From Glomus cerebriforme (Eukaryota > Glomeromycota > Glomeromycetes > Glomerales > Glomeraceae): a stretch of 64,000 nucleotides of DNA. Below, in pieces: positions 10,401 to 54,879 of this stretch. The translations under genes and the position numbers were made by a program. The stretch spans positions 1 through 64,000 of the forward strand of contig QKYT01000264.1 of assembly GCA_003550305.1 (NCBI GenBank). The letters are read 5' to 3'. Below the pieces are notes generated by a model. The model searched no databases. It saw only the letters and a list, made by a program, of their open reading frames with translations, and was not told the origin of the DNA. Within the stretch, counting starts at the first letter, position 1. Each line of letters begins with the position of its first letter.

Positions 10401-10403
10401 AAA

Positions 10404-31043: not shown

Positions 31044-31044
31044 T
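31039..31044 (-). terminator. Poly(A) signal overlapping the P1 stop
   Basis: AATAAA on the minus strand shares one base with the stop codon, the same geometry as in P4. Confidence 0.4.
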
Positions 31045-31283
31045 TAAGGAAACGACAAAGATCCTAATCCAGCGGGTAGCATCAAAGACTCGTTCTCATG
31101 AAAATTTATTCCATTAAAAAAATTATTCTCGTAAGAATTATTTGTACTTTGTAATATATTTATTTGAATAATTCGGTTAATGGTATTAGAATTATTAATT
31201 AAACGAATTCGTGAACCGCGATTTATAAACCGTAGCATCCTGAGCATCTTGCGCGTCCCATGTATTCTTCGTTCAAATAACAT
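31044..31283 (-). CDS. P1: small basic protein of the FFNG/LPAG family (79 aa)
   Basis: First of four paralogues in this window. The N-terminal half is Arg-rich (RKMLRMLRF at 11-19, shared with P2 as RRMLRFM), the middle is Asn-rich, and the C-terminal block is YENNFFNGINF (51-61) then LMLPAGL-GSLSFP to the end. It has no signal peptide, transmembrane helix or known domain. A TATA box lies 168 nt upstream and a T10A10 palindrome lies 11-30 nt before the ATG. Just after the stop, TAAATAAA gives a poly(A) signal overlapping the stop by one base. The 5' flank beyond 31530 belongs to the duplication shared with the gene at 25696. It is probably a real gene because four diverged copies keep the same blocks. 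Confidence 0.65.
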   Translation of the reverse strand: MLFERRIHGTRKMLRMLRFINRGSRIRLINNSNTINRIIQINILQSTNNSYENNFFNGINFHENESLMLPAGLGSLSFP

Positions 31284-31293
31284 CGGATTGAAG

Positions 31294-31313
31294 TTTTTTT
31301 TTTAAAAAAAAAA
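31294..31313. repeat. T10A10 perfect palindrome before P1
   Basis: Ten T followed by ten A, immediately upstream of the start codon. It is one of at least thirteen T-then-A palindromes in the window. Confidence 0.6.
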
Positions 31314-31427
31314 TTACTTATATATTTTTTACTGCGAATGAAATACAATGTGAATATTAGATGACGGTATGCCTTTAATGGATTTATACGGTTTAATATG
31401 TAATGAATATTTTTAAAAATTTTAACG

Positions 31428-31463
31428 AAAGGAATTTCAGAGTCTTTTATAAGAAAATTTTGC
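31428..31463 (-). promoter_or_regulatory. P1 core promoter block
   Basis: On the minus strand GCAAAATTTTCTTATAAAA is followed by GACTCTGAAATT and CCTTT. The TATAAAA is at 31445-31451. The same block precedes P2 (39855-39905) and, in weaker form, P4. Confidence 0.55.
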
Positions 31464-31917
31464 AAAAATATATACATATATTAAAGTTTAATCGGAAACT
31501 TTAAATTAAAAACATTCTCTATTTTTTTGACAACATTGTGACAAAAATGATTATTTTATTCACGGAGATTGTCATTTGCCCCATTTCCCCAATAAATCAA
31601 GCGTTAATTAATATTTTCCTTTTTTTTTTGAAATTTCGGAATTTTTATTTGTTATTTTTCAATATAAAATATAATTAGTTAATTATTTATGGAATAAGTT
31701 ATATATATAAAAATTGTTATTCACCATACCGTTTAAAGAAAACAACTACAAAGATTCTATCTGCGTTATGATTCATGTATGTATATAAAAGATGAAATGT
31801 CGTGCTATAAAGATACAGTACTTTTGGAAATACTATTAAAAATCAACCAGAAATACTTATTTGATATATTTATATACGTATTATACGTATTATATCAGTT
31901 TTAACAGGTTGATAAAT

Positions 31918-32240
31918 ATTAGTTATTTGATAGGGATGTTAGAATATCACCGAACTGCGAAGCAGTTCGGATGATATTTTAACACCCCTATCAAATAACT
32001 GTATTATTCTGCAGCTACCCATGATCATGCTGATCATGCTTAAACTATTTTCTGGCTTTTCATGACGCGCCCTTTTACTTTTTTCTTTATTCCTTTTTAC
32101 TTATATTCATATAAAATGCCACAAACAAGTTCAAGAAAGAATGTATAATTTACTTTAAATAGATTTTGCAATTGTAGTTTATTTATAGCTTAATAAAAAA
32201 ATATCACGGTAAAAGAAGCATGATCCTATTTGGTTGTAGG
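31918..32240. mobile_element. Insertion with an 80-bp hairpin at its end
   Basis: Absent from duplication copy 1, where the flanks join as GGTTGATAAACTTTTAT near 26600. GATAAA is present on both sides of the insertion. The left end is a near-perfect hairpin: arms 31921-31958 and 31962-32000 with a GAA loop, arms starting AGTTATTTGATAGGG. The rest is AT-rich and non-coding. It could be a fold-back element or a Helitron-like fragment; the class is not clear. Confidence 0.6.
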
Positions 32241-34249
32241 ATAAACTTTTATATTGTAATGTCGTGGTGTGAATTGTGATATTTGTATGAACACCTAATT
32301 TCTTAGTATGACCAAACATTAATTTTTCCGCATTACTTGATTGTTTTTTCCTTATTTATTTCGTTAGACATTTCACAGATATGAATTCCTTATAATCAAA
32401 AAAAGAATCCTAGTATAGTTGGAAATTGATGATCGGCAAAAAAAATTAAATTTTGAAGTTAGCCGAATTAGAAAATAAATTAAATATTATTTGATTATGT
32501 GTGACAAATTTGTAATTACTGTATTTTGATTGTGTATATATATTTATAAGAAAACATTTCTGAAACTTGATTTCGAAAAATACTAAAGAATGTTCTTTTT
32601 TGCCGTTTTTATATTTAGATCTCAGCCATTTATTCTATAAGTAATTGTTCTTTATTCTCTTTCCAATTCGGTATGAAACACATTTCTTTGTTTATTTGAA
32701 AAGGAAAAATACGTATATAACGTATATAACGGCTATTTTTTTTTTTTTTGTTGTCTTTTTTTTATATTTTGATACACAAAAGCTTCTCTAAATTTTCGCG
32801 CAGTAAGCTAACCTACCTATTATAATTGACGCATTAATCAATTAATAATATACGGAAATTAAATGAAACAACTGTTTTGGGATATTCAATGGTAAATGTA
32901 TCATAGGTTAATTCCCTTGTTTCATAATTACAAATCATTGTAATATAAACAGAATAACTTTAAAGAAATCGATTGGCTAATGAATTACAAATTTACTCGG
33001 ACATAATATCGGACCGATAAATATAGATGATCACCCTTTTTTCACATAAAATAAAATACATCGAAAGAGTGAGTAATGATTGATCTGAAAAACATTCGTT
33101 TTAGATATCTGTCACAATGATATCGATTTCTGATCCCATTTGTCAAATACAAAGCTGAATTTTCTCGTGGAGTTTTTAACTTTTTTCTTCCTTTATCTTC
33201 CCCAGCATCAATTCATAGTCATGTGACAGTGAAAAATAATTGCCACCGATGTCACGCCCAGAAAATTACTATTTATCCTATTTATCTGAATGAAAAAATA
33301 TTTGTCATACCTATTTATCACAGATACACCACATGCTTTCACTTGTGAATATTTAGTTAGTAAATAACACGCGACTGTGTTTTTAATAGTGATGAGATGT
33401 TGAATAAATTTAAAAATTTACTTATAGCTTTATAACTTTTATTTTCCAATCACTCCCAAATCGATTATTAATTTTCAACCATACAGTAACAAATTAATAC
33501 ACAATAATGTAAAATGTTGTTTCAGAAAAAATAAATATTTTTTGAAGATATTCTGCATTCACAATTGAACGAAATTTTATTTCGTCTTAAAACTTAGCTG
33601 TTTCTTTTAAAAGAGTTGCATATTAATGTCATTTAATATCATTTAAGTCGTATATATTTGTATTTATCAGTTTAAAATATCATTAAGTTTGTTGACTTAC
33701 AGTATGAAAAATTTCAAATAATAATGTTTATATATTTTAGATATTATGCAAGTTTATAGGAAACCATGTAAAAATGAAATGAGCGATATTAGATGTTATC
33801 TACTATTTTAAGGACAATATATAATGTTAATGTATTAAGTAATCTGGAGCCTGTGAATCGCAGTTAGTTGTTATGCGGCATATGCCATGTGGTGTTTTCC
33901 CCTTTACAAGGATTCTCTCTGGTCATCAAGAAGATAGATAAATCATGTGATTATTTTCGAAGATTTATCAAATATGGATAATACCTGATGATTTACACCT
34001 GAAAAAAAATGCAGTGTTTTGCTGTTTTATAATGAATACAGTAATCTCTGATTTTGAAGAATTTCATTAAAAAAATCATTTCTTTATTTTTAAAGTTTTG
34101 CTATAAATGTTTAATAAATAGAAAATATAATACAAACTGCAAAAAAAAAAAAATTAAATAGCATAGTAGTTAGATCGCGAGATATGATATATTAATAATA
34201 CAATTCAGGTATTATGGTAAGTAAAAAAAAAATAATAATAATAAATGCT

Positions 34250-34835
34250 AAATCTCACCGGCGGTGATTGTCACCGCTTAATTCTGGCCAAACATGATAA
34301 TTTCGGCCAGAGTTAAGATACTTGAAAAAAAAATTTTATAGTTTAAAAAATTTAAATCATATGTATGTTAAATAAATATGTTCGCATCAAATTTTGAAAA
34401 TATTTTAATTAAAAATTTTTACTTAAAATGTAAAATTCAAATTTTCATGTTTTCTTAAAACTATCTAAACAACAGTTCTTCTAACCTTAGAAAAACTTTA
34501 ATTATTCACAAATTTACACATATTAATAAATATATTAGTCGAAAATTCGAATTTCATGTGCTCCTTTTTAATAAATTCAATTTCAAATAAATTGCGATTT
34601 TTAATTGTTTTTTTTTTTTTGTGGTATTTAATGATTTGCAACAGAGTTTTAATTTTAAAATGCAATATCTTAGAATTTTTTAATTAAATTTTGATTTATA
34701 AAAAAAAATAATTAATTTTGGCCAAAATTTTAATTTCATTCGAGTCTAACCTTGGCTATAATTAATTGGAAATTTTGGCCAGAATTAAGAAATTATGAAA
34801 ATCCGGCCCGGACCGGCCTCTAATTCTGAAGAAAC
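34250..34835. mobile_element. Insertion in duplication copy 2 with TTCTGGCC repeats
   Basis: Not present at the matching place in copy 1. GC-rich ends (CACCGGCGGTGATTGTC on the left, CCGGCCCGGACCGGCC on the right) enclose an AT-rich interior. TTAATTCTGGCC faces inward near both ends, and TTTTGGCC occurs several times. Non-coding, class unknown. Confidence 0.5.
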
Positions 34836-35225
34836 CATATGGACCATCGTGCCGAAGCAACTTTTAAAAATTTCTAAATAGAGAGCTTATTTCTGATGAT
34901 GATGTTTTTAGATGTTCCTTGTATGAGTTGTATCTCATAGGTCCGGATTTTCCCGTGACGTCATTTATAGCAAATACTAAGCAATTCTGCTTATTTGTCT
35001 TTTATAAGGTTGAATTGATTTTATTTCTTTTAATCCATTAATAATTTAGTTTAGGAAACTTAGGTTCAAATTAATAAACTCAAACAATTCGTTTAGAAAT
35101 TTTTTTTTTTTTTTTATTTACTATTTCTTTTAGGAAATATGAATTTAAAAGTATAAATTCAAAATGAATCTGTTTTAATTAAAGATGGTAGAGTTGAGAT
35201 ATTTAAGATATTAACTTCTGTGATT

Positions 35226-35534
35226 ATTACGATTTTGATTTTATGATTTTATTCGATAAATTTTATCAACCTGTCGAATTAGTAATGCATTATTATTTTT
35301 GGCTTTGGAAATTATTGCATTATTAAAAAAAAGTGATAAAGACAAACAGATAAAACAAGTATCCAATCTGAAAATATTTCTAATATCAAAATAAGATTTA
35401 TGAAAATTCATCTTGATGATAGCCTCAGCATTTTTAAAATATGCCTTTAAGTCTCAATAACATAAATTTATTATCTGTACTGATAAATGAAGATATATAT
35501 AACAAATAAATAAATTATCAAATAAGTATATGCG
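35226..35534. other. Spacer between two duplications
   Basis: AT-rich, nothing recognisable. Confidence 0.5.
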
Positions 35535-36470
35535 GATGCGTAGCAAATTATAAAGGCAAGTTTATCAGTTTGAATTGTTCGCTTGAATTTGTTCCATATA
35601 AAGTCTCATACAAAAAATAAAGGGAATCAATAACATTTTCTTTTATATGTTTCAGAATTCCAGCAAACATCCTAGGAATCCCCCTGACAATCCACTTTTT
35701 CGAATATGTTGTACTGAAAGTATCTAGAAAAAAATGCTTTATTTATTTACTACAAAAAAATATTGTTATTAAAAATAATTATATGAATGGTGACATTAAC
35801 TTAAAATCTATCTATTGTTTTTTGAATGAATTTCCTCTATTATCCTATTAGCTTTTTTATTTGATGGTTTCAACTATTATATCAAAATCTTGCTCGATTA
35901 CAAGGAAAAAATTTATCCCACTCACAATGAATAAATGTTCTTGTTAAATATTATGATTTTTTTTTACCCATTCGAAGATCAACTAATCGCCAAACACCGA
36001 GTTCCGTTTTCGTTTACTTGTTTCGTATGAAATGGGTTATATTTAATATAAAAATAACTTACCTACCTATATCGGATTATTTTAATACAAAATAACTAAA
36101 TTTCTCATTTAAATCGTGAATAATTTAATTTAAAAATAAAACAGATCATATAACTGATAATTAATTAATAAAGACCTCACGGTTACGATTTTTTTTAAAC
36201 GTAATACAAAGCATTCCCTATAAAAAAATTTTCCAGAAAAATGATCATTTATTATAGGGATTTAGTTCAAAGAAAAGAAAAGAAAAAAAAATTTTCTTAC
36301 TTGGTCAAATCCTAATTTCACTTTTCTTTCACAAGTTTGTTTAATCGATATATATAAATAATCGTGAATTTAATTAACAAAAATTTCGTGATCGAAAAAT
36401 ATTTGTCAAAATGTCAATTACGTTTAATTAGTCACGTGTGATCAATTTTAAAAAAAAACGGATTTTCCTC
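35535..36470 (-). repeat. Inverted segmental duplication, arm 2
   Basis: Reverse complement of about 13175-14020. Here a short extra segment (about 36215-36285) with CCCTATAA...TTATAGGG ends is inserted relative to arm 1. No open frame is shared along the full length of both arms. Confidence 0.7.
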
Positions 36471-37104
36471 TCTAACATCTAAAATATGATATTCATGTAA
36501 AAATTGATCCACCAACAGGTTGAAAACACTCAATCCTTGGAGAATTATTTTAGATTCCGGAGTACGAACGAAAATTAATGCATTAAGTTTAAACTTTTGT
36601 TTAGAAATACTATAGTAAGGAAGACATGCAGAATATTAATTTAATTAATATTAATTAGGGAACGGTGAACCATTATTGAGTCCGGAATAAGAGGGTTTTG
36701 ATTATTGAACACATGATAAATAGGTGCTTACTTTATTGAGATCATTGCATAATAGGAACCAATAATCTATCAACTCAAAAATTGAGCGGGCGGACAAACG
36801 TACACCGGGCCTAGAAATATATAGTCCTACGCTAACGCTCTGGACTAATAAATTTAATTGAATCGATATTGATATTTACTGCATAATTTATACTAGTAAA
36901 TTCGGTTACATAAAATAGTTTAGAATTTGTTTTAATAGGATCTACTCACCAATAAATTTTTTAGACCATTTATAAAGAAGATATGAACATGAAAGCTCAT
37001 AAAATGTATAGTTGCATTGGTTAAAAGCATGATACTTTATGACTAATATGAAAATTTAATTATTCGTACATTAAAATATATGATGTGTATTTTGTAGGAT
37101 TATT
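36471..37104. other. Gene-free tract
   Basis: No gene or array recognised. 37097-37104 is the left copy of the target duplication of the next element. Confidence 0.5.
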
Positions 37105-37550
37105 AGGACCCCAAAATATGCATACAGAGGTCAGGTCCAACCAAAAAAATTTTACTATTAGCTGTACGCATTTTTTCAGGGCCGGAATTACGGTAATGTC
37201 AGGCAGTTACTAAAATAAGGGTACGTCTAAAGCGGAGCAGAATCACGTGATTTTCGTGAAATTTTTGGCCGGAATTATGGCATTAAGAAATTATGCATGT
37301 GACAAATAACAGGTAATAAATAGGATTTCACCGAAAAATTCTGTCCCTAGAATACTTGGGAAAAATGGAAAATGAAGATGTGACGCGGGGGTGACAGATA
37401 TGCAATATGATCACTCCGCTTTAGACGTCCCCTAAAATAAGTAATAAATTGCTGGCTGACATTATCAGAAATTATCAAAAAAGGAAAGATTTACATGATC
37501 ATTATACGCAAAACTCTGACCCTACCTTTATATATATATTTCGGGGTCCT
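37105..37550. mobile_element. hAT-like MITE, copy C, with a nested MITE
   Basis: The ends AGGACCCCAAAATAT and, inward from the right, AGGACCCCGAAATAT are flanked by a perfect 8-bp duplication GGATTATT (37097-37104, 37551-37558). Removing the nested element leaves 224 bp, close to the 233-234 bp of copies A and B. Non-coding. Confidence 0.9.
37219..37432. mobile_element. Nested MITE with ACGTCTAAAGCGGAG ends (214 bp)
   Basis: The inward-facing ends GGGTACGTCTAAAGCGGAG and GGGGACGTCTAAAGCGGAG differ at one base. A perfect 8-bp duplication TAAAATAA (37211-37218, 37433-37440) flanks it. It sits inside the hAT-like MITE, so it is younger. The 8-bp duplication again suggests hAT-type transposition. 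It contains CACGTGA and a GTGACGCGGGGGTGAC patch. Confidence 0.9.
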
Positions 37551-37558
37551 GGATTATT

Positions 37559-39406
37559 AGCCGTCTTTTTTTAAAAAAAAAAATTTATTATGGTTTTGAC
37601 AATTATAATCCATGGAATTGATTGGTTGAATAAAAATATTTTTGTGATTCAGATTTTTACACAAAATAATATACAATGCAATTTGTCCGGTGTTTATAAA
37701 AATTTTGTGCGGAGTTGTTTTGTTGTCTTTGAATGTGTGAAAACATTCCGGATGTTCCGGACAACCTATAAAAGGAAATTGTTCTATACACGCTTTTTTA
37801 AGCCCTTGTGGACACATTTTATCCGGAGATCGGATGATGATCCAACATAATTATCAATTTTAGTAGTTAAAGACTTGATAATTACCATCCGAAAAAAAAA
37901 ATTATTGAACATCGATCTTAATTATTAGGCGAAGTAAATTTGCGGCTAACCATACTGTACATATTTCAATTATAAATGATTATTCATTTGATTAATCTGT
38001 ATTTAAACTAATCGTTTATAATTTTGTTTTTCTCAATCTATGATTTAAAATATCATCTCTCAATTCGAAAATCAATTAATATAATACAATATTTAATTAA
38101 ATGACTTAAATGAATTACTGATATTAAAGAATTTAATTTTTTTTTTCGAATTAAATTTACATTCAATATTTATATCATTGTATTTATAGTAGTTTTAGTA
38201 ACACAAACTTCATTACTACGCTTGCGACCAGATCTCGGCCGAATTTTAATTTCGGCCGATGGACATAATATTGGGCGAATAAAGACACCGCAGTTAAATT
38301 TCATCAGATATATTCATATATACATTATGAAAGAAATTATTATTTTAAATCATCATGGAAATTTTTAAATCATGAATGTAATAATTTTATGCAAATTGGA
38401 GTTTTGATTAAAGAATCAGTATGATTCTAATATATGGAAAATGTTAAATTGTCAAGCATGTGTACAGATATAAACTGATAAATTGCTTTTATCTGATGAC
38501 TTTTGTACACTTCTGTGCATATTTGACAAATAAATGAATTGATAATGAATTGAATTTCCTTTGAAATAAATTGATTTACACTAACTTACTTGGAATGGAT
38601 AATTCAACGTTATTTTAAGTGCAGTAGAGTTAGGAGATATAATGTTTTTTTTTAAAAAAAAGAAATTTTAATTTTATTATATTATTATAAAAAAATGACT
38701 CGAAAAGTCGTAAAATTTTAAACTAAATCACTGTAATGAACCGATCAAAACTTTGGTTGACAGGATATTAACCGTTAAGATTTTTTTTGGTTGTCTCTAT
38801 GTAATAATACTTTTGCTCATAAATTTAATAGTTATTATATAAATAATGAGATAATAACATATAAAAGGAATCTTCTATATAAAAAATGGTAATTATTAAA
38901 GTCACACATACATTCTATTAATAAAGCTATTTGTCTAGAACAATATCACGCGTCTTAATTTAGAAAAATTCGAAAGAACATTTTTGTGTTTAAAATAAAA
39001 TCATATCTTACCAGATAAACTTTATTCATTTCAACTGTTCTTAACGAATATACTAACTATAAAGAGATTCCATTTAATTAGTGATAATGAGTGGTCCGAT
39101 TTGATTAAAAAATTTATTTATTTATTTGTATGTAATAAATAACTGATTAAATTAAAAATATCTTATCATAATTAAATTATTCTATAATCAAATTTAATTC
39201 TTTGGTTACATAATCAACTACTTGATACGACGTTTTCGTTGTTTGTAGAAAAAAAAATAATCTTTCCTTAAAGAGTACAGTAAGTTATATTAAATAAATA
39301 TCTTATACTAGTTATAAACACCTTATAGGTACATATGCTGTTAATAAAAAAAAATTAAAGTATCTGGCTATTAAAATTCAATATCGAACATAAAATTTTT
39401 TTGTAC
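37559..39406. other. Gene-poor tract with ambiguous overlapping frames
   Basis: Two 86-codon frames overlap on opposite strands (37557-37817 minus, 37590-37850 plus). Neither has a recognisable motif and I cannot choose between them. T7A11 lies at 37566-37583 and T9A8 at 38645-38661. A palindrome with CGGCCGAAAT-type arms lies at 38237-38264. The rest is AT-rich. Confidence 0.4.
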
Positions 39407-39412
39407 TTTATT
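39407..39412 (-). terminator. Poly(A) signal of P2
   Basis: AATAAA on the minus strand, 44 nt after the P2 stop. Confidence 0.45.
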
Positions 39413-39455
39413 TAAAAAAAAGAAAGGGGTGAATAACGAAATACGATGAAATAAC

Positions 39456-39716
39456 TCAAGGAAACAACGAAGACCCTGAAAATCCAGCAGGTAAAATTAA
39501 AGTTTCGAAATTATTTTCATCGTTGAAGTTTGTCCCATTAAAGAAATTACTTTCGAAAAAATTATTCGTAATTTGTGGTGTAATTAATTGAGCGATACGA
39601 TCAATTGTGCTAGAATTATTTATCGAAACACGATTACGGTTCGAATTATTTCTCATAAATCGTAACATTCGGCGTGTTCGATTATGATTCCTTTGTCTAT
39701 AGTTTCTTGATAACAT
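39456..39716 (-). CDS. P2: small basic protein of the FFNG/LPAG family (86 aa)
   Basis: Best preserved member. It starts MLSRNYRQRN, is Arg/Asn-rich to about residue 31, then has ITPQITNN (45-52), FFESNFFNGTNF (53-64), and ends LILPAGFSGSSLFP. I chose the ATG at 39716 rather than an upstream in-frame one at 39809. The extra residues would come from an ATT microsatellite, and MLSR matches the starts of the related proteins. The TATA box is 160 nt upstream in a block shared with P1. There is no signal peptide or membrane segment. Function unknown; a nucleic-acid or protein-binding role is conceivable from the basic N-terminus, but this is a guess. Confidence 0.7.
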   Translation of the reverse strand: MLSRNYRQRNHNRTRRMLRFMRNNSNRNRVSINNSSTIDRIAQLITPQITNNFFESNFFNGTNFNDENNFETLILPAGFSGSSLFP

Positions 39717-39740
39717 TGATTTTTTTTTTATGAAATTTAT

Positions 39741-39763
39741 TATTATTATTATTATTATTATTT
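39741..39763 (+). repeat. ATT microsatellite in the P2 leader
   Basis: Seven to eight ATT units lie just upstream of the P2 start codon, within the presumed 5' leader. Confidence 0.7.
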
Positions 39764-39854
39764 TGTGGTAATGATCAATTACCACTCGGATTAAAATATA
39801 AAGGTACAAATTTTAAAGAAATAATGACAATTAAAATCTTTTAAAAATCTCTAA

Positions 39855-39905
39855 AGGAAATTTCAGAGTTTTTATAAAGAAAAAATGTCTCCCAAAATCT
39901 TGCGA
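39855..39905 (-). promoter_or_regulatory. P2 core promoter block
   Basis: On the minus strand CGCAAGATTTTGGGAGAC precedes TTTATAAAAACTCTG, AAATTT and CCTTT. TATAAAA is at 39870-39876. It matches the block upstream of P1 in order and spacing. Confidence 0.55.
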
Positions 39906-41155
39906 AACGTATTATTATAACCTAAGTTCATGAACAAAAAAAGATTAAAATTAATCAAAAGCAATGTTACACTACACAAAGTTTTCACGCGTGAACCGGG
40001 AGACTTTAGCATACCCAACTAAATTCCACTGATATTGCATAAATAAGATAATTCAATTAATTTAATTAAATTCTCTAACACGAAAATAAAGGTTATTTTT
40101 TTTGGAAACGAATTCCGGTTCTAAAAATAAATTTGAATTGAGCTAGCCATAAAACGCGTTTTTATTAAACGCGTAATTTCCACAACTTATAAACAGATGA
40201 AAACAGATGAAACTTTATCTTTCGGCTGTGATAATAAGATTTAGAATTCACCAATCAACTTATCAAACGTGTATATATTAAATGTAAAAGCTCTAAGAGT
40301 TACAATAAATAAATATATATATTTTACCTATATAATTGGTAGTCAATAATCATTGAATAATGAAATTTGCAGATTCTATTGTTAAATATTGCACGATCAT
40401 TATCATTCATTCTATTGATGTACGATGATTCAATTGAAAAAAAAGAATTACACATATTTCGCTTATAAAAACAATTATTTTTGGTAACTAATATCACCTC
40501 AAATATTTATATGTATTAATATTAATTTATAATATCGCTTTTTATACAACAAATATAAACAATTAATTTAGTTAAAACCATTGATTGTGATTACCTTTTT
40601 TATATTAAATTCCTTTTATTCCTTTTACTTTAAAAGAAGAACAAATGATTGATTTTTTGATTTGTAATTAGTTACATGAAAATATTAATTTCTATACATT
40701 AGCTAATTGATAGGAAATATCCGCCGAACCGTGGATGAATTATATATATATATATTTTTGAATATAATTTTTTTTTTAATATACTCAATATTAGGTTAGT
40801 TTTTGTGTTACATTGATCGGCGATTTGCCACAGTTAACTATTTTTGTATCTATTATAAACGCCACGGTGGCTGTAAACTACTATTTTGGTCTCTTTTATC
40901 CTTTCATATTAAGTTTCGCCCCTCATAATCAGCCCAAGTAAAAGGAATCTTTTAAATATACGCACATTAAGAAGTTTCATAATTAGTACATATTTAAAGT
41001 TTGCGCCAATTTTAATTATGTCGCGTGATCAGAATCGACAAATTTAACATCCCTGCGTACAAATCTTTAATTATATTTTTTTGCTGCGTATTTATATTTA
41101 GTATTTGATGAATGGTAATTGAATTTAAGTGCCGATATGTACATATGTAGTTCAA
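39906..41155. other. Gene-free tract
   Basis: AT-rich, with a near-palindrome ACGCGTTTTTATTAAACGCGT at about 40150. No gene is seen. Confidence 0.45.
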
Positions 41156-41590: not shown

Positions 41591-41598
41591 TTTATATA
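41591..41598 (-). promoter_or_regulatory. TATA box for the small membrane protein
   Basis: TATATAAA on the minus strand, 200 nt before the ATG at 41398. Confidence 0.35.
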
Positions 41599-43620: not shown

Positions 43621-43625
43621 TATAT

Positions 43626-43681: not shown

Positions 43682-46675
43682 AATAGTAAGTCAATCTGAT
43701 TTGACACACGTGATTATTATAGCTGTTCAAAATCGGTCAGTTACATTTTTCGGTTGGAATGTACAATAACATGTGCAAAATCCGACCTTTTGACCCAGAC
43801 CAATAGAATTGTTTTTTTGCAAACCAAGATTTTGAACAGGGCTATTAATATCAAATAATGACGCACCTTCAAATTAAGCTATTGTTTATGATTGTAAATT
43901 TGTAAATTACAGACCCTTTTTTCACAATTAATTAATAATTTTGATGACTATTCTAAGGTCGGAAAAGAATATGTATCTTAGCTTTTTACGCAATTCAAAG
44001 AATAAAAAATTTTCTCTTTATATATGAAAGTAAAACGAATCCAATTACTGTTGCCAACCTATTTTTATTTCAGTAACGGAAAAACCACTCGACCCTATAA
44101 TAAATACTCCATAATGTACAAAAAAAAAATTCATGACTCAGACAGATGCTTCACAATTTTTTTTTTTTACTTGGGTTCGAATGAAATATAATTGGCTGGT
44201 ATTACAATAAATATATAATAATACTTTATTAATCGATTCTGCGCCAAATTAATTACGAAGTAAACTACTATAAAACTAAAGAAAGTATAATTACATATAA
44301 ATTTGGGCAATTGTTTCAGTATTATTAAAAATCATATATCCTTACGGAGTAAATTTATACCGTCTCACTCTTCATATATAAGCAAAAAAAAATTTTTATG
44401 TGATTACATCTGATCTAAAAAAAATGGTAGTCAATAAAACAGATTTTATCATTTGTCGGAACATTTCTACCGATTTATGTATACATCTATAGACATGTTA
44501 TTTATGGAGCGGAAATTTGAATCCTTTCCTCTAGCATATGACATTTTTATATTATATTGTTCATGCTATTAATCGTCATATCAAATTAGTTTAAATTAAT
44601 TTTTTTCTTTGTATTTATGGCTGAATATGATAGTTAAACTTACATATATGTGTACGTTAAATATTTGGTAGATCACAATAAACTTATTGTTTCAAATTTT
44701 TTAAATTATAATAATTTTCTATGTTTAAAATAAACAAATTGACCCCTTCTTGGATATAGCTCATCGAATATTTTAAGGGGTTAAACCAATGTTTGGGTTA
44801 TTCAGGTTTAATTATTACCGGGTTTCGAAACTAGACCTAATTATCAATCGTAGTAAAGCTTGTTTAACTTAAAAATTGAAGTTAAAAAATTGTAGCTATC
44901 GAAGATCTAATTTGCTAAATTTAGCAAGAAAAATACAATATAATGATAAATAAAAATCAATTAATACATTAGGTTGTTAAGTTTGGACATGATGTAAGTT
45001 TAAATTGGCGCGAATTTTCGCACGAAGTATTAATGTATTAATTGCTTTATGTTTGATTTCATTGTATAGATTATTAGATAGAATCCATCTTCAGTTGGCC
45101 AATCGGACTTCGCCGTAATTATTTACTCATTCACACGCAAAATGCACAAATTGATTGAAGTACATGTAGCTATTATTATCATAAACACATGATAAATCAT
45201 TATATACATGCCAATCTACATAATGTAACAAACAAACAAATAATTAATAATTAATTTTGGATAACTTAAAGTAAAATTGATATGTTTATATATATCTCTC
45301 GAAGATTTATTCTTCTTGATTAATTAATACATCCTTGAATGCTTCGAAATTGACATATAACTGATAAATTTTGTGATTGTACATTTGTGCACAATTATAA
45401 GCATTAAATAATTAATTCGTTTTTGTTTAATTTTTTTTAGGTCAAATATTTATTTTATCCCGTAGTGTGATAATATCTGATATTACAATATTACTTAGTA
45501 AAGAAAAACCATCACACATTATAAATTAGTTTTGTACAATTTCAGAAAGGATTTACTGAAAAATGTGACTTAACGTACATAAATTTTTTTTTTTTGAGAG
45601 ATTCCTATTTATAATAATTGAGGAAAACAAAAAATCCTACTAAGAATTGTTTTTTTTTAAAAAAAAAAAAAAAAAATTCGGACGTACATTCTGACATTCT
45701 TTTGTATAAATAGTATAACCTTCCAAATCTATTGATATTTTTGTGGCGTAACCATTTCTAAAAATAATACTATAATTTTGAAACAATTAAACTAATATAG
45801 AAGGAGATTAGATGGTAAATACATAACTGATAAAAATGTGAATTCTAATATTTATCTTATAAAATGACCCCCTTTTCAAATTCCTAACAAGGTTCAAAAA
45901 ATTCTACTTCTTACAAACTAAAAAAATGAATCCAATTCCGGCCTGTTAAACCAATTGTTATGGAGTGACAGAAAAAAACTCAACCTTATAAATCAATACC
46001 CTATTTTGATAATGTAAATCTTCAAGAAATCAGATGATCACAACTTTTTTGTCACAATAACTACAATAAAATGAATCCTTTTTAGGTTATTGAAAAGAAT
46101 TTTTGGGGTAAATTTTCTATTTTTACATATTATTTGGTGGGGATTAAAAATTATATTATAGTAAATTATTAGGGATAATTGCTTGTGCAATGTTAGTCTA
46201 TTTTCCAGTCCAAATTGCAAACCGGAAAATGTTCCGAAATTCGATGTTCCGACATCCTTTTTTAATTTTTTTTTCTTTTGAAAAACAAATTTATGTAATT
46301 ATACTTATCAGAATTAGGGAATACTAATAGATTGGTCTAGATCGTTGGACAAATACGGAAAGACATAAAGCAGTAAGGAGAGATGCATTTATAGATATTT
46401 ATTTAGTACAGCTGGCTGAATTTTTTTTTTCTTTCTGTGATTGATCGAATATTTACAAGGGATATAGTTAGAATTATAAAATTTCAATAGTGATTATTGA
46501 AGTTATGTTAAATATTCAAATTAATGATATATTGATTTAACTAATATAAAGAAAAAAAATATTATCAAATAATTGTATTGGAAGAAAAACTATCTAACCA
46601 ATTTAATTTAATCTTTCAAATTGTAATAAATAGATAAATGAATTTTTTTTTTTATGGGAGTAAAATAAAATCACG
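43682..46675. other. Gene-free tract
   Basis: About 3 kb of AT-rich sequence without a supported gene. T9A19 lies at 45650-45677. A short frame at 46038-46220 (minus) is unsupported. Confidence 0.5.
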
Positions 46676-46684
46676 TATATAAAC
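46676..46684 (+). promoter_or_regulatory. P3 TATA box
   Basis: TATATAAAC, 158 nt before the P3 ATG; TATATAAACTC precedes P4. Confidence 0.5.
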
Positions 46685-46833
46685 GCTTACTTGCTTTGCG
46701 AAAATTTAAATATTCCATACTAAAAAAAAAAAATAAATAAAATAATCAAGTTATTAATTTTTATAATTGCAATAATAAGCTTTACTATTTACATCAAAAA
46801 ATTTCATAAAAAAAAAAATCATTTTTCCTTCAG

Positions 46834-47076
46834 ATGCCACCAAGAAGGTTATATGAACAAAGACGAGAACGCAGGGTTCGATTTAATAAATGCCAAGACC
46901 GCGTTTCGCGGATTAAAACCCCTGATTTCACTGATCAAATTGTTCGGATAGTCACTCCTCAAATCACAGAAAATCCTCTTGAAAAAGATTTCTTTAACGG
47001 AGGAAACTTAAATTATAACGTTAGTAGTCTCGAACCCTCTGGATGTGGATGTTGGGGATCTTTAATGTTTCCTTAA
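46834..47076 (+). CDS. P3: small basic protein of the FFNG/LPAG family (80 aa)
   Basis: The N-terminus is strongly basic (MPPRRLYEQRRERRVRF), followed by IVRIVTPQITEN (36-47), LEKDFFNGGNL (49-59) and SSLEPSG (64-70). The C-terminus ends SGCGCWGSLMFP, so the LPAGF of the relatives has become EPSGCGCW with two extra Cys. The final (L)FP is kept. The ATG lies in CAGATGCCACC, after a T-rich stretch ending in TTCAG, so a leader intron is possible. It is divergent from P1/P2 but clearly the same family. Confidence 0.65.
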   Translation: MPPRRLYEQRRERRVRFNKCQDRVSRIKTPDFTDQIVRIVTPQITENPLEKDFFNGGNLNYNVSSLEPSGCGCWGSLMFP

Positions 47077-47389
47077 AACAAATTTGTTATTATCAGATTT
47101 TTGATTTTTACGAAATATGTAGCTGTAGCTTTTTTGAAATTTCTTTTTCCTTTCGTAGTTTTAGAAATCGTTCTTTTAAGTTTTAGTGGTACTCTTTTTA
47201 CATTTAAAATTTGAAAAAAAAAAATTTCATGTGATTGTATTACTGTGTTTTTTATTATAAATCATAAATATTATAAAATTTTTTGTCTGGCTAAATATCA
47301 TATCATAGACATACTGTATATTGTTTATTTTATTATTGTCTGCAAAAATTTAACTAAAGTAAGTGTTATTACATGTTAATTTGGATATT
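47077..47389. other. P3 3' flank
   Basis: AT-rich, no clear AATAAA close to the stop. Confidence 0.4.
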
Positions 47390-48660
47390 TCTCGGATGTT
47401 CGGCCTATACGATGCTTGACGATCTTTGTTTCAGGTTTTTTTTTTTTAATTCTAGAAAAAATACTTTGTGGGGCATCGTCAGTTTCAGATTTACTTTTTT
47501 AAACCCCAAAAAAGAAACACTTTGTAGAGCATCATTATTTATAAATTTAAAAATAACTTAACATTGCGTTTTATATAAAAAAAAAAAACTTCTTTATACC
47601 TGATCTAAAAAAAAACAGAAATAACGTTCAAATACGGTAACAATAAGCCTCTCATTCAAGCATTTCTTTTTATACCTAAGAACAATAATGTTTCTTTTAA
47701 AAAATTACATGCTTACAATGGCTTATATTCTTTCTCATTTCACTTTTAATAGTTATAGCTTCAAATAATTTCAAATGATTTATAAACCTACATGTATGAT
47801 ATCATCTTTTGTTTCATAAATTGAAATTACGATATTAAATATTTAGGATAATTAAGTAACCGACCTGAATTATGATGATTTTGGCCTGCATATAAGGCAT
47901 TATGCGCAAATAAAGGGTTTAATTTTCGGAAAATTTTCCGAGGTGGATTAGTAAGCAATAAATTTTTTTATTGACCTAAATTATTATAGTTTTAAATATT
48001 GGTATATCATTTTATATTTATTTATTTATTAGTTAGGTATTATTTATAATAATAAACTAATTTAGGTTTAGTATTTAAGGCTCTAATTTAAGCATAAATA
48101 TCACAGGGTATGATGCAAAATAGGTTAGGATACATTACATAAACGTGGAGTTTGATATGCATGATTAATTAAACTATCTGATATTAGACTTTCACACTAA
48201 AAATAAAAGAATTTCTTTTTAATGTTACGAACAAAAAAAAAATGGGTTTATTGTTCTTTTAATGTAACTTATTAATTATACGATGAGTAACGGTAGCACT
48301 AGTAACGGTAGCAATTCGCATAACTTTATCAAATAAATTAATAATTACAAAATAATATACTTCAATATATATTACTGTATATATATTTTTTTTTTTTAAA
48401 AAAAAAAATATTCTTTATCATTTTATGGAAGTAGTATTTTTATCGTTATCTAATTATTTTTAGATCCAAATGAGATTTTTTTTTCGTTATGTATAAAAAT
48501 GTGAAAATCGTGCGACAAAGTATATAACAAAGTGAAAGTTATATAAATTTGGACTGATTGAACCATTGAAGTGAACACTGAGTGAACTTTATTTCTAATC
48601 AAAAATACAATATATCTTTAATATTCAAATGTTTATAAATAACAATATAATGTTGTATTA
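47390..48660 (+). repeat. Segmental duplication downstream of P3, copy 1
   Basis: Same-strand homology to about 52130-53480. Anchors are ACGATGCTTGACGATCTTTG/TATGACGATCTTT, TTCAAATGATTTCAAATGA (47760, 52520), CTAATTTAGGTTTAG (48057, 52875) and ACATAAACG (48137, 52962). T12A11 lies at 48386-48408. Short frames (47373-47561) are not conserved in the partner. Confidence 0.65.
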
Positions 48661-49112
48661 GAGACGGAAGTCCAATAATGATATTATCCATTTAATACAT
48701 AGGAGTGTAGCACAAGCTGGGGCGGTCAAAAATAGTCAGCATGTCTATCCCCGTTAATTTTTAAGTTAATGTAAAATAAATATATTATTCATTATTAGGT
48801 TAAATAATGGATTAATTTAAACTGATTTCGACATCTACACGATTAGATATATACTGTATCTATCATAGATTTAATTTTATTATTTTAAAAGACTTTGTAT
48901 AAATTAGGCTGTTCGAAATTTAATTAATAAGTTAGGTAAGTTAAATATTCACATTAAACAAAATTTCTAATTTACTTAACCACAAAATTACAAAATCAAT
49001 GATCCGCAAAATAAAGTTTCAAGAATGTTATCTGTGCGTGAAACCAAATAAATTTTTTTTATAATAATTTATTCTAATAATGTGAATCTTAACATTTTCT
49101 TTTGTCTGAGTA
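48661..49112. other. Gene-free tract
   Basis: Nothing recognisable beyond AT-rich sequence. Confidence 0.5.
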
Positions 49113-49585
49113 CATCACAGTTTTCAAGAGGTCCGATAACCATCAATGGATGGAATGTCCACTGACTATCCATTGTCGGACCCTCCGCAGGTTGGACGTT
49201 AGTAATGGACGTCCACAGACCGTTAGTTATACGTAATATTACTGACGGAAATTTTTATTTGATTAATAAATAAATAAAAAAATTCCTTTTTTTTTTGTTT
49301 ATATAAGGAATCGAACCAGATATCTCTTTAATAATATATCTCACAATTCCAAAATTAGACTTTGTTTTTTTTTAAATTATTTATTTAACCAATAAAAAAA
49401 AACAAAAAAATATATAATTTTTTTAAAAAAGATCTACAAAATACCTGTTATAAAACGATATCGTCAAATTACTGTTTATAAGGTAATTAAACACTTTGAA
49501 CTTCAAATTTACGTTAAATTCTTAACGTAAATTTTACATTTTTGATCTGCAAATGGTCATCAGACCTCTTTAAAATTTAGTGATG
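49113..49585 (-). mobile_element. TIR element with tRNA-like interior, copy 3 (complete, 473 bp)
   Basis: Best complete copy. It is flanked by TA, with inward ends CATCACAGTTTTCAAGAGG and CATCACTAAATTTTAAAGAGG, both continuing TC-GAT-ACCAT. On the minus strand a perfect B-box GGTTCGATTCC lies at 49317-49307, preceded by an A-box-like AGTCTAATTTTGG about 45 nt earlier. The 3' body contains CCGTCAG, GGACGTCCATTACTAACG and CCTGCGGAGGGTCC. No ORF. Confidence 0.8.
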
Positions 49586-50099
49586 TATTATAAATATGAT
49601 TTCATTTCATAATATTAAACAAATAACAAAGTTCAAAAATAAAATTCCCTAACTGAAATCAAGCGAAACATTAAAAAAACCCCCAGACTTTTATATAAAA
49701 ACAAAACAAAACAGAATGAATTAAACCAGGTCACATCATTAAAATTCCAAGCAGTCCGATGACTATCACTTGACAAATAACGTGGATTTACGGTCAACAT
49801 TTTTACTAAAAATTGATGTAAATGCCCAATCAAAGTCCAATTATATGTCCAATAGCTGTTAATTTACAAATACATTATCGGATGTTATTTATGGACAATA
49901 ATCAAACAATACTGATTTATAAAAGTTTAAAATAATTATGAAATTTTAAAATTTTACAATATAAAATTTAATTAGAAATATAATTTTAATGATTACAGTA
50001 ACAATGTGATCAATCAAAACAGTAAATTTTATGAAATAAAAGAAAAAAGCAATTTATTAACTATATATTTTTTTTTAAAAAAATTATTTTGTCTTTATA
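49586..50099. other. Gene-free tract
   Basis: AT-rich, with T9A7 at 50068-50083. The frame at 49633-49833 (minus) is unsupported. Confidence 0.45.
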
Positions 50100-50361
50100 A
50101 AATGAATTATAACTAGTCCAGTGAGATGATTGTAAGTATATATTATTAGGAACACTTATTTGGTTCGATTCCTAATAATGTAAGCAAAAAAAATAATCAA
50201 TTATTTTATTTGTTTATTATCAAATACAGAAAAAAAATTTTTTCCATCAGCAGTATTACCCTCAACTGATGGTCTGATTATCTGCGGAGGGTCTGTTAAT
50301 GAATAGTTAATGGACATTATGTCCACTGATAGCTGCCGGACCACTTGGAAACTTAGTAATG
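50100..50361 (+). mobile_element. tRNA-derived repeat, copy 4
   Basis: A-box TAGTCCAGTG (50114-50123) and B-box GGTTCGATTCC (50162-50172) are 48 nt apart, as in tRNA genes. The body shares CTGATGGTCTG, CTGCGGAGGGTCTG and ends CCGGACCACTTGGAAACT...TAATG. It belongs with copy 5 to a subfamily with ACTTGG instead of TCTTGA near the end. A B-box falling inside a short minus frame (50201-50407) nearby is coincidental. Confidence 0.75.
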
Positions 50362-50859
50362 CAGTAGTTTCTGAAGTAACAAAAAAACCACACAATCTTA
50401 CAATCAAATAATTTTAAGACCTCAAATGATTACTCGTTAAATTTTTGTGATATCTATTAGTGTCGAGATTAAGTATAAAATGAAACTGTTTATGTTAGTG
50501 CGTCAAATGTTCATTGTGCGTCAACTGACCTGACCGACCTGACGTGCCTAATTTCCATAATTTAGGTCGAACTCCTGACAATTTCAACACTTTTCGATTT
50601 ATATGGAACTCGTATTTCACAAATAGTATTTTACTTTCTTGTGTATTCGGATATTTTCCAAAGTCATTCCTGGAAACCCATTTTTTTCTAAATTATATAA
50701 TTCATAAAGAAATTATTTAACATATACAGTATAAACCAGTGTCCCTTGCCGTACGTGCTTTCACATTATGTGTCACTTTATGAGTAATTGTATGGTTGTA
50801 TGGGATAAATAGGTGACGGGATTGCCAGATGTAATGTAACTTTAAAATTTAAAAACTTT
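50362..50859. other. Spacer between two convergent tRNA-derived repeats
   Basis: No gene. GTGCGTCAACTGACCTGACC near 50515 is a locally GC-rich phrase. Confidence 0.45.
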
Positions 50860-51090
50860 AAGTTGAATTTCCAAGTGGTCCGGCAATTATCAGTGGACAT
50901 TATGTCCATAACTATTCATTAACAGGTCCTCCGCAGGTTGGACGTACATAATGGATATTCACAGTCTGTCAGTTGAGGGTAATATTGACGGAAAATAATT
51001 TTTTTTTAATTCATTTTATATTTATTTAATTGATAAATTTTTTTTTAATTCATTTTATATTTATTTAATTGATAAATTTTTTTTTTTTTA
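50860..51090 (-). mobile_element. tRNA-derived repeat, copy 5 (head truncated)
   Basis: Reverse orientation, sharing the CCAAGTGGTCCGG end, GGACATTATGTCC and CCTCCGCAGGTTGGACG with copy 4. The tRNA-like head is missing. Instead a phrase AATTCATTTTATATTTATTT is present twice in tandem (51008-51080), ending in T13A9. Confidence 0.65.
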
Positions 51091-51442
51091 AAAAAAAAGT
51101 ATAGTTAATAAGTCGCTTTTTTCTTTTATTTTCTCAAACATACTACGCGACGAGGTTATCATAAACATCGTAATGGGAACTATCACACATATTACATGCT
51201 TTATCAGGACGACAAGTCTTTTAACATATCGATAAACATTATTAAGTGTAGCACCGATTAACTTCATTATTATTTAGGATATATGTCATTATTAATTATT
51301 TCTATAAATGAGGTGGTAAATGAATGGTAAAGTATAATATATACATTATTACCCTATGAAAAATGAAATCCAAAAAAGTCCGAAATGGTTTCAAAATATC
51401 CGAAAATTGTTCTAAATTTGAACCTATTTAGGACGCAGTAGG
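51091..51442. other. Spacer before the 72-codon frame
   Basis: AT-rich with a GC-richer patch (CTACGCGACGAGG near 51143). No gene. Confidence 0.45.
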
Positions 51443-51661
51443 ATGTTTTCTGTACCTTTTTTTTCATGGGGTTATTGTTTTTTGAAACACATTAAAAAAA
51501 GTGTACACGGGATTGTCCTTGTGCCACCTGTCACCCAAAATTCCACAAAATTTAGAAAAAACGTGGTCGAATTTCGTTCAATGATGAAAGAAAGAAAAAG
51601 AACGACTTTGCATGAGATTATCAACCATTTGGAATCAAGAATTAAATATTTCAAATGGTGA
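51443..51661 (+). CDS. Hypothetical 72-residue protein
   Basis: A frame with protein-like composition. It has a hydrophobic start (MFSVPFFSWGYCFL), a short VHGIVLVPPV segment, then a basic helical end (EFRSMMKERKRTTLHEII, then NHLESRIKYF). No known domain. The N-terminus might be a signal or anchor. The antisense frame is a shadow. It lies upstream of the second copy of the duplication, in the place where P3 lies relative to the first copy, but the two proteins are not similar. It may be a terminal exon or a chance frame. Confidence 0.35.
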   Translation: MFSVPFFSWGYCFLKHIKKSVHGIVLVPPVTQNSTKFRKNVVEFRSMMKERKRTTLHEIINHLESRIKYFKW

Positions 51662-52129
51662 CAAAAATGATTTAACTCACAAAAAAAATATATTTATTTT
51701 ATTATTCATTAAAAAACAGTCATATATATATACAGTAATATTATATAATATGGTAGTACAAGAATATAATAAAACAATAAAACGACCATTTATAGATTTT
51801 TTCTGGGGATAACTAATCATAATATTTTTTTCAAAAAATGTAAATGTAACTTTCCTTAAATTTAACTATTTATTAAATAAATATTTATTGTTTATTATAT
51901 CACACAAATTCGGCAATATGGCAAATTATTCGTGCAATTACTTCTTGTCCCCAATTTATTTTTACCTTCATTTTATTTATTAACAGTGGAAAAGTGGATA
52001 ATTTTCTAACTTTAATATTAGATAACCAAAAAATGTCTCTTGAGGAGTAATTTTAAAGCAACCGAAAGTTAAGTTTATTAATGTTTATAATGCTAGCCGT
52101 CATTATAGTAAATATCCCCTAACCTATCA
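51662..52129. other. Gene-free tract
   Basis: AT-rich, nothing recognised. Confidence 0.45.
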
Positions 52130-53480
52130 ATATAGAGTTCAGGGTCCTCGTTTCATCGTGTATGACGATCTTTTATTTTTTGTTTCATATTTCATGCATC
52201 CCTTAAAAAAAAAATACAATTTCGTCAAAATTATAATTCACTAATCAGGATTGGCATGTATCCGCATAAAAAAAATTTTTCCGCTACTCAAAATACGGTG
52301 GTGTTCATTTAATGATTTCTTTTTATAATTTAGTTGATTTATTATTGGAACAATTATAGAGTGATATTTATTGAAAAAATGCATTTTACTGCATCCATAT
52401 GAACTGCTTAATCATAATCTTAGAGACGGAGATTTTGAATTTTATATTCTTTATACGAAAAATAAAACCACCTCATTTAGTTAGTCAAATTTTTTTTAGA
52501 TTCAATTAATACTATTTTGTTTCAAATGATTTCAAATGACTAAACTTACATGTTTATAGCGTCATACTGTATATTATTTTATAAAAAAAGTCATTCAAAA
52601 TAATATTTAGCCTTATCTAGTATCGAGATATAAGTCCCAAATATTAAATTATTTAAGCATATATTAAGGGGTATATTATAAAGAATTTCCTAAGAATAGA
52701 TGGCGTTTATAAGTAAAAATATTATTTTGATCCTTTGTTTTTTATATTTTAAAAATTATAACTTGTTTAACCTTTAATTCATTTAATATTTGATTATTTA
52801 CGTTATTTTTGAAATAAAATTCTTTTTATCTATTTGTTACATATTTATATTCTGTGGGTTTTATAATTATATTCTAATTTAGGTTTAGAATATACAGAGC
52901 ATATAAAGCATAAATTCATTAATAAATACAGCAAATATGCTAGGGTATTAAGCACACATACATAAACGCGGGGACTTGATGTGCAGATCTAGTGTTATAT
53001 ACTAATGTATAGTATATTCGGAGTTTTCATACGAATAAACAATCATTTTCATTGTTCTTTCTATTGTATTGACCTGTTCAGAGAAACTAAAAAAAAAAAA
53101 AGAGTAACATACTGTACATGAGTACTTCTAAATAAAAATTCAAAAGATCCGTAACCATATCTAATAAATGAGATAAGGATAATTATTATTATATAAAATA
53201 TTACAGTACTTCCATAAAAATACTTATATATATATATATTTGGAAAACAAAGCTTTATTTTCTTATATATTAGGTCATTACTGCTGGTAATGAATTTTAA
53301 TTATTTACAATGAATAATTACTTTCTCCTCTCTAAAAACAAGATGCATAGATTATGCAATAAATTACATATCTTACTGAAAGTGATAAATTTGGATCTGT
53401 TGAAATGAAGGTTGAAATGAACTTTATTACAAAATTATTTTATTAGAATATACAGTTTTAATGGATAATCACAAAAATCT
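52130..53480 (+). repeat. Segmental duplication, copy 2
   Basis: Partner of 47390-48660, moderately diverged with many small indels. No gene inside. The shared end (ATGAACTTTATT / GTGAACTTTATTTC) lies near 53420 and 48590. Confidence 0.65.
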
Positions 53481-54544
53481 CAGTAATTATCATATATTGA
53501 TTACAACTTTTTAAAGGAAAAATTGTTTAACCGACTTTCGATCATCCGATCATCCGTAATGCTAGTTAATACATGGGCCTATAATATTAGGCCAGAACGT
53601 ATAGAATGATCGACAACGGATATTAAGAATTATTATAAATTGCATTATCATGAATATCGATCTTGGAATAACTGTATTTATGTCATTGAATTTTTGATCA
53701 AATTTAAATTTAACCCGGTGCCAATATGAAAGATTTTATTATCTCTGACTAATAATGTTTCAATATAAATGTAATAATAAAAAAAAAAAGAATTGATTTT
53801 CAGATTATAATAAAGCTGTTCGTATGATATTACGATAAACAAAAGTGTACAACATTTTTGATTTAAGATATATATGATGCCAAATTTTTTATCAAAAATC
53901 ACAATATGGTTGGTCCCCTTAAAGTATTCGGTTACAATAAGATTGCCTGATAAACGTTTTCTCGATGACTAACAAGGATTTTAGTAATTCAAATACAGAA
54001 ATTTTGTTTGAATATTAAAATAGTCCAATCAATCGCTGAATTTCTTTTTTAAATAAAATGGTTTATATATATTCACACGAAAATAAAATAATATAATTGA
54101 CGGAACTGTACGTACATGTATAGTACGTCATAGTAGCTATTTATAAAACTCACGTCTATGTACGCCATTAACAGATCATTGTTTAATTTCCTCTAAATCT
54201 TTGTTATATGTCACGCATAGATTTTTTTTTAACGAACGACTATCGTTACTTAAGTATTAAAATATTAAATAATATCGTACATTTTTTTTTTTTGTAGCGA
54301 AAAGGGAATTAAGGTTCAATAAGATAACATAATAATAAGTCTTAAAATATATATTATAGTGAAACCGATAATTGTCAACCAAGCAAAATCAATTAATTAA
54401 AAAAGACAACAATGAAAGCGACGTACGCTCACTCCTCAGCAAAATTTCATTGTCAAGCATATCCCTTAAAAGTTGTACATATTAACCGGATTTAGTTTTA
54501 TACGTATTTCTTTTTAAACGACACTATTTTTGAAAAAAATTACT
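53481..54544. other. Gene-free tract upstream of P4
   Basis: No supported gene; the frame at 53678-53902 (minus) is low-complexity. ACGTACATGTATAGTACGT near 54110 is a palindromic patch. Confidence 0.45.
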
Positions 54545-54553
54545 TATATAAAC
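54545..54553 (+). promoter_or_regulatory. P4 TATA box
   Basis: TATATAAAC followed by TCAAAAAAATTCCCT, a weaker version of the P1/P2 block. It is 86 nt before the ATG, closer than in the relatives. Confidence 0.45.
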
Positions 54554-54630
54554 TCAAAAAAATTCCCTGATAATTTTTTTTTTTTAAAGAAAATGACTTC
54601 ATATTAACACAAAAAAAAACGATATTCAAA

Positions 54631-54879
54631 ATGGCATCAAAAAATTATATACGAAAACGCAGGACATCACGATTATTCAGCCGCAGAATCAATAATTTTA
54701 ATACAATTAGTCGATTACAAAAACTTCCACCGCAAATCATAAACAATAATTTCAATGATTTCAATGATTTCGCAAATAATTTGTTGAATGGAACAAGTTT
54801 TTTTGATAACAATAGTCTTGAATCCTTAATTTTTCCAGCCGGATTTTCGTCTTCGCAAGATATCGGATTTTCTTTTTAA
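54631..54879 (+). CDS. P4: small basic protein of the FFNG/LPAG family (82 aa)
   Basis: It starts MASKNYIRKRRTSRLFSRR (basic), then LPPQIINNN (32-40), an Asn/Asp/Phe repeat (FNDFNDF), NNLLNGTSFFDN (49-60) and SLESLIFPAGFSSS (62-75). The C-terminus is SQDIGFSF instead of SLFP. LLNG replaces FFNG. The MASKN start recalls MSSKN of the gene at 25696 and MLSRN of P2. It has no signal peptide or membrane segment. The ATG is the first in a leader of about 60-80 nt after the TATA box. The TAAATAAA at the stop repeats the arrangement in P1. Confidence 0.65.
   Translation: MASKNYIRKRRTSRLFSRRINNFNTISRLQKLPPQIINNNFNDFNDFANNLLNGTSFFDNNSLESLIFPAGFSSSQDIGFSF

Follow-up and report, generated by a model that had tools for sequence, protein, structure and literature searches.

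Short arginine-rich proteins of Glomus cerebriforme and their possible place in an expanded HMG-box family

Introduction

Positions 1 to 64,000 of the forward strand of contig QKYT01000264.1 of Glomus cerebriforme (assembly GCA_003550305.1), a stretch of 64,000 nucleotides hereafter called the window, carry four short open reading frames, P1 to P4. A sequence-only reading had presented them as four paralogous proteins, nearly regularly spaced, kept by selection and belonging to no described family. The questions that this locus raises are whether these frames are genuine genes under selection, to which family they belong and what their products could do.

Four short genes in the window

Translation showed that the four frames are intact, with coordinates that include the stop codon: P1 (31044..31283, minus strand) encodes 79 aa, P2 (39456..39716, minus strand) 86 aa, P3 (46834..47076, plus strand) 80 aa and P4 (54631..54879, plus strand) 82 aa. 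At the local composition, the chance that an 80-codon frame stays open is about 7e-4. When P2 was used as query against the 112.5 Mb host genome, P1 was recovered with an E-value of 1.5e-11, P3 with 2.5e-6 and P4 with 8.7e-5, a kinship beyond chance that confirmed the proposed four paralogous proteins of 79–86 residues. Their alignment contains 11 invariant columns and keeps the order of blocks previously described, including the absence of the TPQI middle from P1, in which NILQSTNN occupies the position of TPQITNN. All four display an Arg-rich leader followed by a conserved tail, which in P1 includes NNFFNGINF and LPAGLGSLSFP and in P3 terminates in EPSGCGCWGSLMFP. The charge is split, from +7 to +10 in the N-terminal half and from −3 to −5 in the C-terminal half.

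The AlphaFold model of P2 (pLDDT 56) is uninformative as a structure and fits with disorder; a helix is weakly predicted at its residues 12–22. Pfam searches at E ≤ 1 gave no HMG match for any of the four proteins, and no transposon domain was present; P2 and P3 had only sub-threshold, unrelated matches and P1 and P4 none.

Family size, spacing and architecture

Five queries, namely P2, P3 and P4 plus a long member and a foreign type-B protein, together identified at least 93 loci (E ≤ 1e-3), which are spread over 29 contigs of the host genome and of which 26 are on contig C2. This number is a lower bound, as only the best candidates were scored; a few broken copies are counted in it, and three HMG-type loci are left out. 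The search with P2 gave 58 matches at E ≤ 1. Thus, the four members first noticed are real paralogs but an undercount of the family. Among the broken copies are C186:2072, with three stops, and C800:142415 and C800:142543, which lie in different frames.

The contig of the window (C374) harbors eight loci, seven from the union and one (77603) from a local HMM. The near-regular spacing claimed before holds for the starts of P1 to P4, which are 8.4, 7.4 and 7.8 kb apart, but the family as a whole does not share it: the following gaps on this contig are 22.9, 7.8, 14.3 and 4.1 kb, and the gaps between neighbours among 65 listed loci (a list including matches up to E 1 and leaving out many type-B loci) extend from 0.9 kb upward with no period. 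Regular spacing was consequently rejected as a meaningful feature.

Three architectures were distinguished, with lengths that assume the first ATG of the frame as the start. Type A, to which P1 to P4 belong, comprises proteins of mostly ~74–99 aa with an Arg-rich leader and a full tail resembling INNxNTIDRIxRITTPQITNNxxENxFFNGTSFxDNNxxESLILPAGFSGSSLFP; a few type-A-like members (L014 and L028) have Arg-poor leaders. Type B (~55–111 aa) also has an Arg-rich leader, and its tail ends near FFNGSSFY. Type C, the long form (120–179 aa), consists of a domain of ~110 residues and then the type-A tail.

A tree of 69 tails separated type B from the rest by a supported branch (99/94) and showed types A and C intermixed, with 6 and 7 changes, on the basis of 66 columns that leave many forks open; several independent losses of the box, also considered, are beyond its resolution. 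The nearest relative of P1 is at C800:246356 (L016; fork 100/84) and P2 has a duplicate at C524:179472. P3 is the sister of the database protein P0034 (fork 100/90), with which it has in common the start MPPR[RK]LYEQRR, and P4 is the sister of P0010, from an ENA contig of 655 bases (fork 98/92). Since P3 and P4 group with these proteins and not with their neighbours in the window, P1 to P4 would represent older lineages rather than a recent tandem array.

Relationship of the long members to the HMG box

The profile of the long members aligned with a profile of HMG-type relatives with an hhalign E-value of 5.8e-11. The latter was built from seven rows chosen among the weak matches of the protein P0012, four of which pass the Pfam HMG_box model, and the HMM of the long form matched all seven. 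In addition, the predicted fold of residues ~50–118 of the long form resembles the HMG-box domains of SOX, HMGB, LEF1 and UBF in the PDB, with 7–13% identity in the ten best rows. The segment preceding the box reads LDRxKIFPPYYNNP in the long members, versus INYNNIYLLPYNNN in the HMG-type relatives of the same genome. A profile search of the PDB by sequence returned four weak matches, none of them to an HMG protein. Pfam gave no HMG match at E ≤ 10 for any of eight long members of the host genome, nor at E ≤ 1 for P0014, P0023 and P0033. The [PS]NxF motif, which plays a minor-groove role at the start of HMG boxes, was found in none of 20 long members. From these profile and fold comparisons, we consider that the domain of the long members is homologous to the HMG box, although diverged and below the Pfam cut-off.

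Of the 65 loci in the above incomplete list, five have an HMG_box match at a distance of up to 10 kb, versus 1.65 expected if loci were uniformly distributed and with clustering uncorrected; this would agree with a partnership of the short proteins with boxed relatives. The long member at C711:33149 adjoins a series of HMG_box genes on its contig.

Sequence comparison showed a common conserved tail, which follows an HMG-homologous domain in the long members and stands without a box in the short ones. Its presence in canonical HMG proteins was suggested by eye from the C-termini of L050, L052 and L054 and was dropped as unproven; the HMM of the tail recovered none of the seven HMG-type relatives within its 17 best rows, all of which were shuffles.

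As for the box itself, P0012 aligned by tblastn to most short members only from its residue 86–120 onward. Its match runs upstream of C374:103702 over three stops and of C622:300831 over one; a box remnant beside these two loci was discarded, as the long-form HMM found none there. The same HMM detected no box in the window and gave only noise-level matches at the other short-member loci (0.98 at L036 and 0.43 at L048, the best of the reversed control being 0.08), most loci outside the window being covered with 1.5–2 kb on each side, so that farther remnants would be missed. The HMM of the type-A leader aligned to residues ~97–119 of several long members, with 5 of 20 above the best of 2000 shuffles and 14 of 20 below 7 bits. 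This is only a hint that the leader may descend from helix 3 of the HMG box and keep its final turns, a reading weakened by its Asn-rich composition.

Selection on the family

The family is under purifying selection, in its leader and tail alike. On trees, omega was 0.28 for type A (n = 18; 2dlnL 133 versus omega 1), 0.26 for type B (n = 17; 2dlnL 117) and 0.22 for the long members (n = 9; 2dlnL 175). Within type A, values of 0.37 (2dlnL 25.9) and 0.24 (2dlnL 102.7) were obtained for leader and tail, respectively. Five simulations at omega 1 yielded estimates of 0.84–1.25 with 2dlnL ≤ 3.2. These values refer to paralogs and were calculated with a custom script on FastTree topologies from 44 of 57 frames (18 type A, 17 type B and 9 long). 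The 13 fragments and broken or atypical frames left out were L009 at 407, L010, L019 (twice), L020, L021, L022, L024, L028, L030, L035 at 3343, L040 at 928 and L048.

On terminal branches, neutrality was rejected for P3 (omega 0.33, 2dlnL 4.9) and P4 (0.20, 2dlnL 10.4), was borderline for P2 (0.10, 2dlnL 3.4) and was not rejected for P1 (0.47, 2dlnL 2.1). Pairwise codon maximum likelihood on the 16 closest type-A pairs gave omega values of 0.09–0.55, with 2dlnL above 3.8 in 11 of them. Neither the pair of P2 and its duplicate (0.42) nor that of P1 and its closest relative (0.55) exceeded this value. The selection on the protein that had been proposed from conserved blocks is thus supported by a family-wide dN/dS well below 1, the terminal branch of P1 not rejecting neutrality.

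Genomic context of the genes

P2 and its duplicate on C524 have 93% aa identity, and their genes are 96.6% identical with 12 gap columns. Their downstream flanks are 80–96% identical per 200 bases, with 20–112 gap columns in each such interval; upstream, a stretch of ~0.8 kb that only one of the two copies has breaks the alignment. For P1 and C800:246356, identity falls from 92% in the gene to 84% immediately outside it and 45–66% farther out. Around P1 to P4, blastn matches in other members were mainly the genes themselves. Segment 31390-31461, ~110–180 bases upstream of P1, matches the upstream DNA of L008 and L009 and, partly, of L037. Dispersed repeats (28362-28691 and 37111-37550) have counterparts at several loci and elsewhere in the window; homologs of the second were found in L014, L017, L026, L027 and L039.

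That P1 to P4 form part of a mobile element spreading the gene is extremely improbable. The 93 loci on 29 contigs, the duplicated stretch of P2 and C524, which spans 3.86 kb of the window, and the dispersed repeats near several members would agree with such an element. However, P1 to P4 lack a transposon domain in Pfam, the 37.1–37.5 kb repeat recurs at 1250-1471 and 3322-3392 of the window, away from any member, and the similarity of distant members is mainly confined to the gene, element ends being judged by how far the blastn matches reach at P1 to P4 and four other loci. The sequence-only reading had named a known transposon protein as what would refute it, and the data give this no support.

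Relatives in databases and literature

One long member (L012) matches the hypothetical protein C1645_823475 of Glomus cerebriforme (Glomeraceae) without a difference over 174 aa; on this basis the genome is assigned to that species, in agreement with a fungal origin. Long relatives were found in Rhizophagus clarus, R. irregularis, Funneliformis mosseae and F. geosporum (23 proteins, E ≤ 1). Searches for short relatives gave 7 proteins at E ≤ 1 and, in another search, 35 at E ≤ 0.01; those with a species name belong to R. irregularis and R. clarus. All tail relatives with a species name come from arbuscular mycorrhizal fungi, and none of the database relatives listed carries a precomputed Pfam domain. 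P1 to P4 were absent among the database matches for short relatives and, as a result, they appear to be unannotated.

Titles and abstract openings of the top-ranked papers, with few subscription journals among them, contained no account of box-less short relatives. The claim that no described family bears this signature agrees with this and with the sub-threshold Pfam matches, but the tail ties the short proteins to long ones with a diverged HMG box. According to three articles, large HMG-box families and homologs of SexM occur in arbuscular mycorrhizal fungi, whose sexuality is debated; jointly, these articles describe more than 100 HMG-box factors for Gigaspora rosea and, for R. irregularis, five HMG-box genes arranged in tandem at one locus (PMC7490403, PMC3834313, PMC4771724).

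Interpretation and alternative functions

Because P1 to P4 have their tail in common with long proteins that carry the diverged HMG box, they would belong with the expanded HMG-box family. The explanation that we favour, with about even confidence, is that they are short, probably functional members of a Glomeraceae family within the expanded MATA-HMG/SexM-like HMG-box genes; they look like shortened offshoots of expanded mating-type-like regulators. From the charge split, the pLDDT of P2 and the HMG kinship, we infer nuclear regulators whose leader is basic and whose acidic-aromatic tail serves for docking. The leader would serve for nuclear import and nonspecific nucleic-acid binding. The tail, acidic, Phe/Leu-rich and probably disordered, may dock on the partner that the long members also bind, either a co-activator or an HMG relative. 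The short proteins could then tune the HMG network as microproteins that titrate this partner or, alternatively, recruit it to nucleic acid with none of the DNA specificity that a box provides, either competing or cooperating with their HMG relatives.

Among the other possibilities, the most probable, though rather unlikely, is an action outside the nucleus. The N-terminus would then be a mitochondrial presequence or an RNA- or ribosome-binding arm and the HMG link merely historical, as the positive, acid-poor N-terminal half and the weak helix of P2 could suggest. Nevertheless, the leader of P2 is rich in Asn and that of P3 includes Glu, and the acidic tail, unneeded in the passenger of a presequence, is more constrained than the leader. 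It is somewhat less likely that the short members arose by decay from long genes with an HMG box, the box having been deleted or eroded and the rest of the frame lasting only for some time, so that the family would be mostly debris of birth and death with few functional copies. The broken copies on C186 and C800, the P1 branch, which does not reject an omega of 1, and the mixing of type A and long members in the tail tree, as repeated loss predicts, with many forks open, argue in its favour. The constraint on both the leader and the tail of type A, outside the range of the neutral simulations, is difficult to reconcile with decay, as are the rejection of neutrality on the P3 and P4 branches, the recurrence of the start and Arg-rich leader of P3 in P0034, and a window in which the long-form HMM found no box remnant. 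Finally, small, multi-copy and lineage-specific proteins are typical of fungal effectors; yet the Arg-rich starts of P1 to P4 have no hydrophobic stretch, as judged by reading the sequences, and kinship with HMG-box proteins also makes effectors or signalling peptides leaving the fungus very improbable.

The family of P1 to P4 is, on present comparisons, real, selected and apparently undescribed, with a putative function as nuclear regulators. Its box-less selected members add a testable layer to the debated sexuality of arbuscular mycorrhizal fungi and raise the questions of the stage at which they are expressed, of the partner of the tail and of whether the long members, with their diverged box, still contact DNA. 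More speculatively, and we consider this doubtful, there could be a two-layer system in which boxed regulators are accompanied by dozens of selected, box-less, Arg-rich mini-proteins with a common docking tail, acting as diverse competitors or adaptors and possibly contributing, in this multinucleate symbiont, to a code for self/non-self distinction or nucleus compatibility.

Comparison with known systems

The MATA-HMG/SexM-like HMG-box genes of arbuscular mycorrhizal fungi, reportedly treated by Riley et al. in 2014, are among the closest known systems. The family resembles them in its large copy number and in the long members' domain and pre-box segment, homologous to those of HMG-type relatives. 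In contrast, the long members have neither a Pfam HMG match nor [PS]NxF, P1 to P4 have an Arg-rich leader instead of a box, and the tail was undetected in the seven HMG-type relatives. Microproteins are small relatives of multidomain regulators without the DNA-binding domain, and the short paralogs likewise keep the non-box part of a longer, regulator-like protein; however, the part kept by P1 to P4 is a predicted disordered tail and no known dimerisation domain. With respect to SOX, HMGB, LEF1 and UBF, and despite the low identity in the ten best rows and the absence of [PS]NxF from the 20 long forms, the likeness lies in the predicted fold of residues ~50–118 of the long form.

Distribution of the P family and of a second small family

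On contig C2 of the host genome (476 kb), 26 loci of the P family were found, spread from about 35 to 474 kb, and the majority of them came from the query of type B, the short members with an Arg-rich leader and a tail stopping near FFNGSSFY. Among the relatives of HMG type, locus L050 (C711:29500-30400) was matched by the HMM of the long form at 1.8e-8, and a Pfam search of it gave no match. L050 is a relative intermediate between the boxed and the degenerate forms.

An open frame unrelated to the P family (MSSKNTPYVQKINLSNNNMRIRKKPPKICSDCKE..., window 25696-26109, minus strand) gave 39 matches with E <= 0.01 when the host genome was searched, and its only Pfam hit, DUF7222, was below threshold. 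These matches make up a second small family. Fifteen of the 39 matches were located on C800 and others on C299, C400, C723 and C374, the contig of the window; all five contigs also carry the P family, and both families are possibly co-clustered.

Lipase gene and repeated DNA in the window

A class 3 lipase gene occupies several frames at 16270-18204 on the plus strand, of which the one at 17278-18201 matched Lipase_3 in Pfam (E 1.2e-18), and this gene likely contains introns. A tandem array of four copies with a period of 115 was located at 9952-10402. Pieces of a dispersed repeat (37111-37550) were detected both within the window, at 1250-1471 and 3322-3392, and in the loci L014, L017, L026, L027, L034, L039 and L048.

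DNA around P1

Beside P1 there are pieces of a duplicated stretch (26297-28786 and 31610-33870), about 5.1-5.6 kb apart, and P1 itself lies outside the duplication. Upstream of P1, the segment 31390-31461 matched DNA upstream of family loci L008 and L009, and partially L037; it could be a shared promoter piece. Finally, a near-palindrome of 92 bases (31915-32006) had 58 matches in the host genome with E <= 0.001, on both strands at many places, and it resembles a short MITE-type hairpin element.
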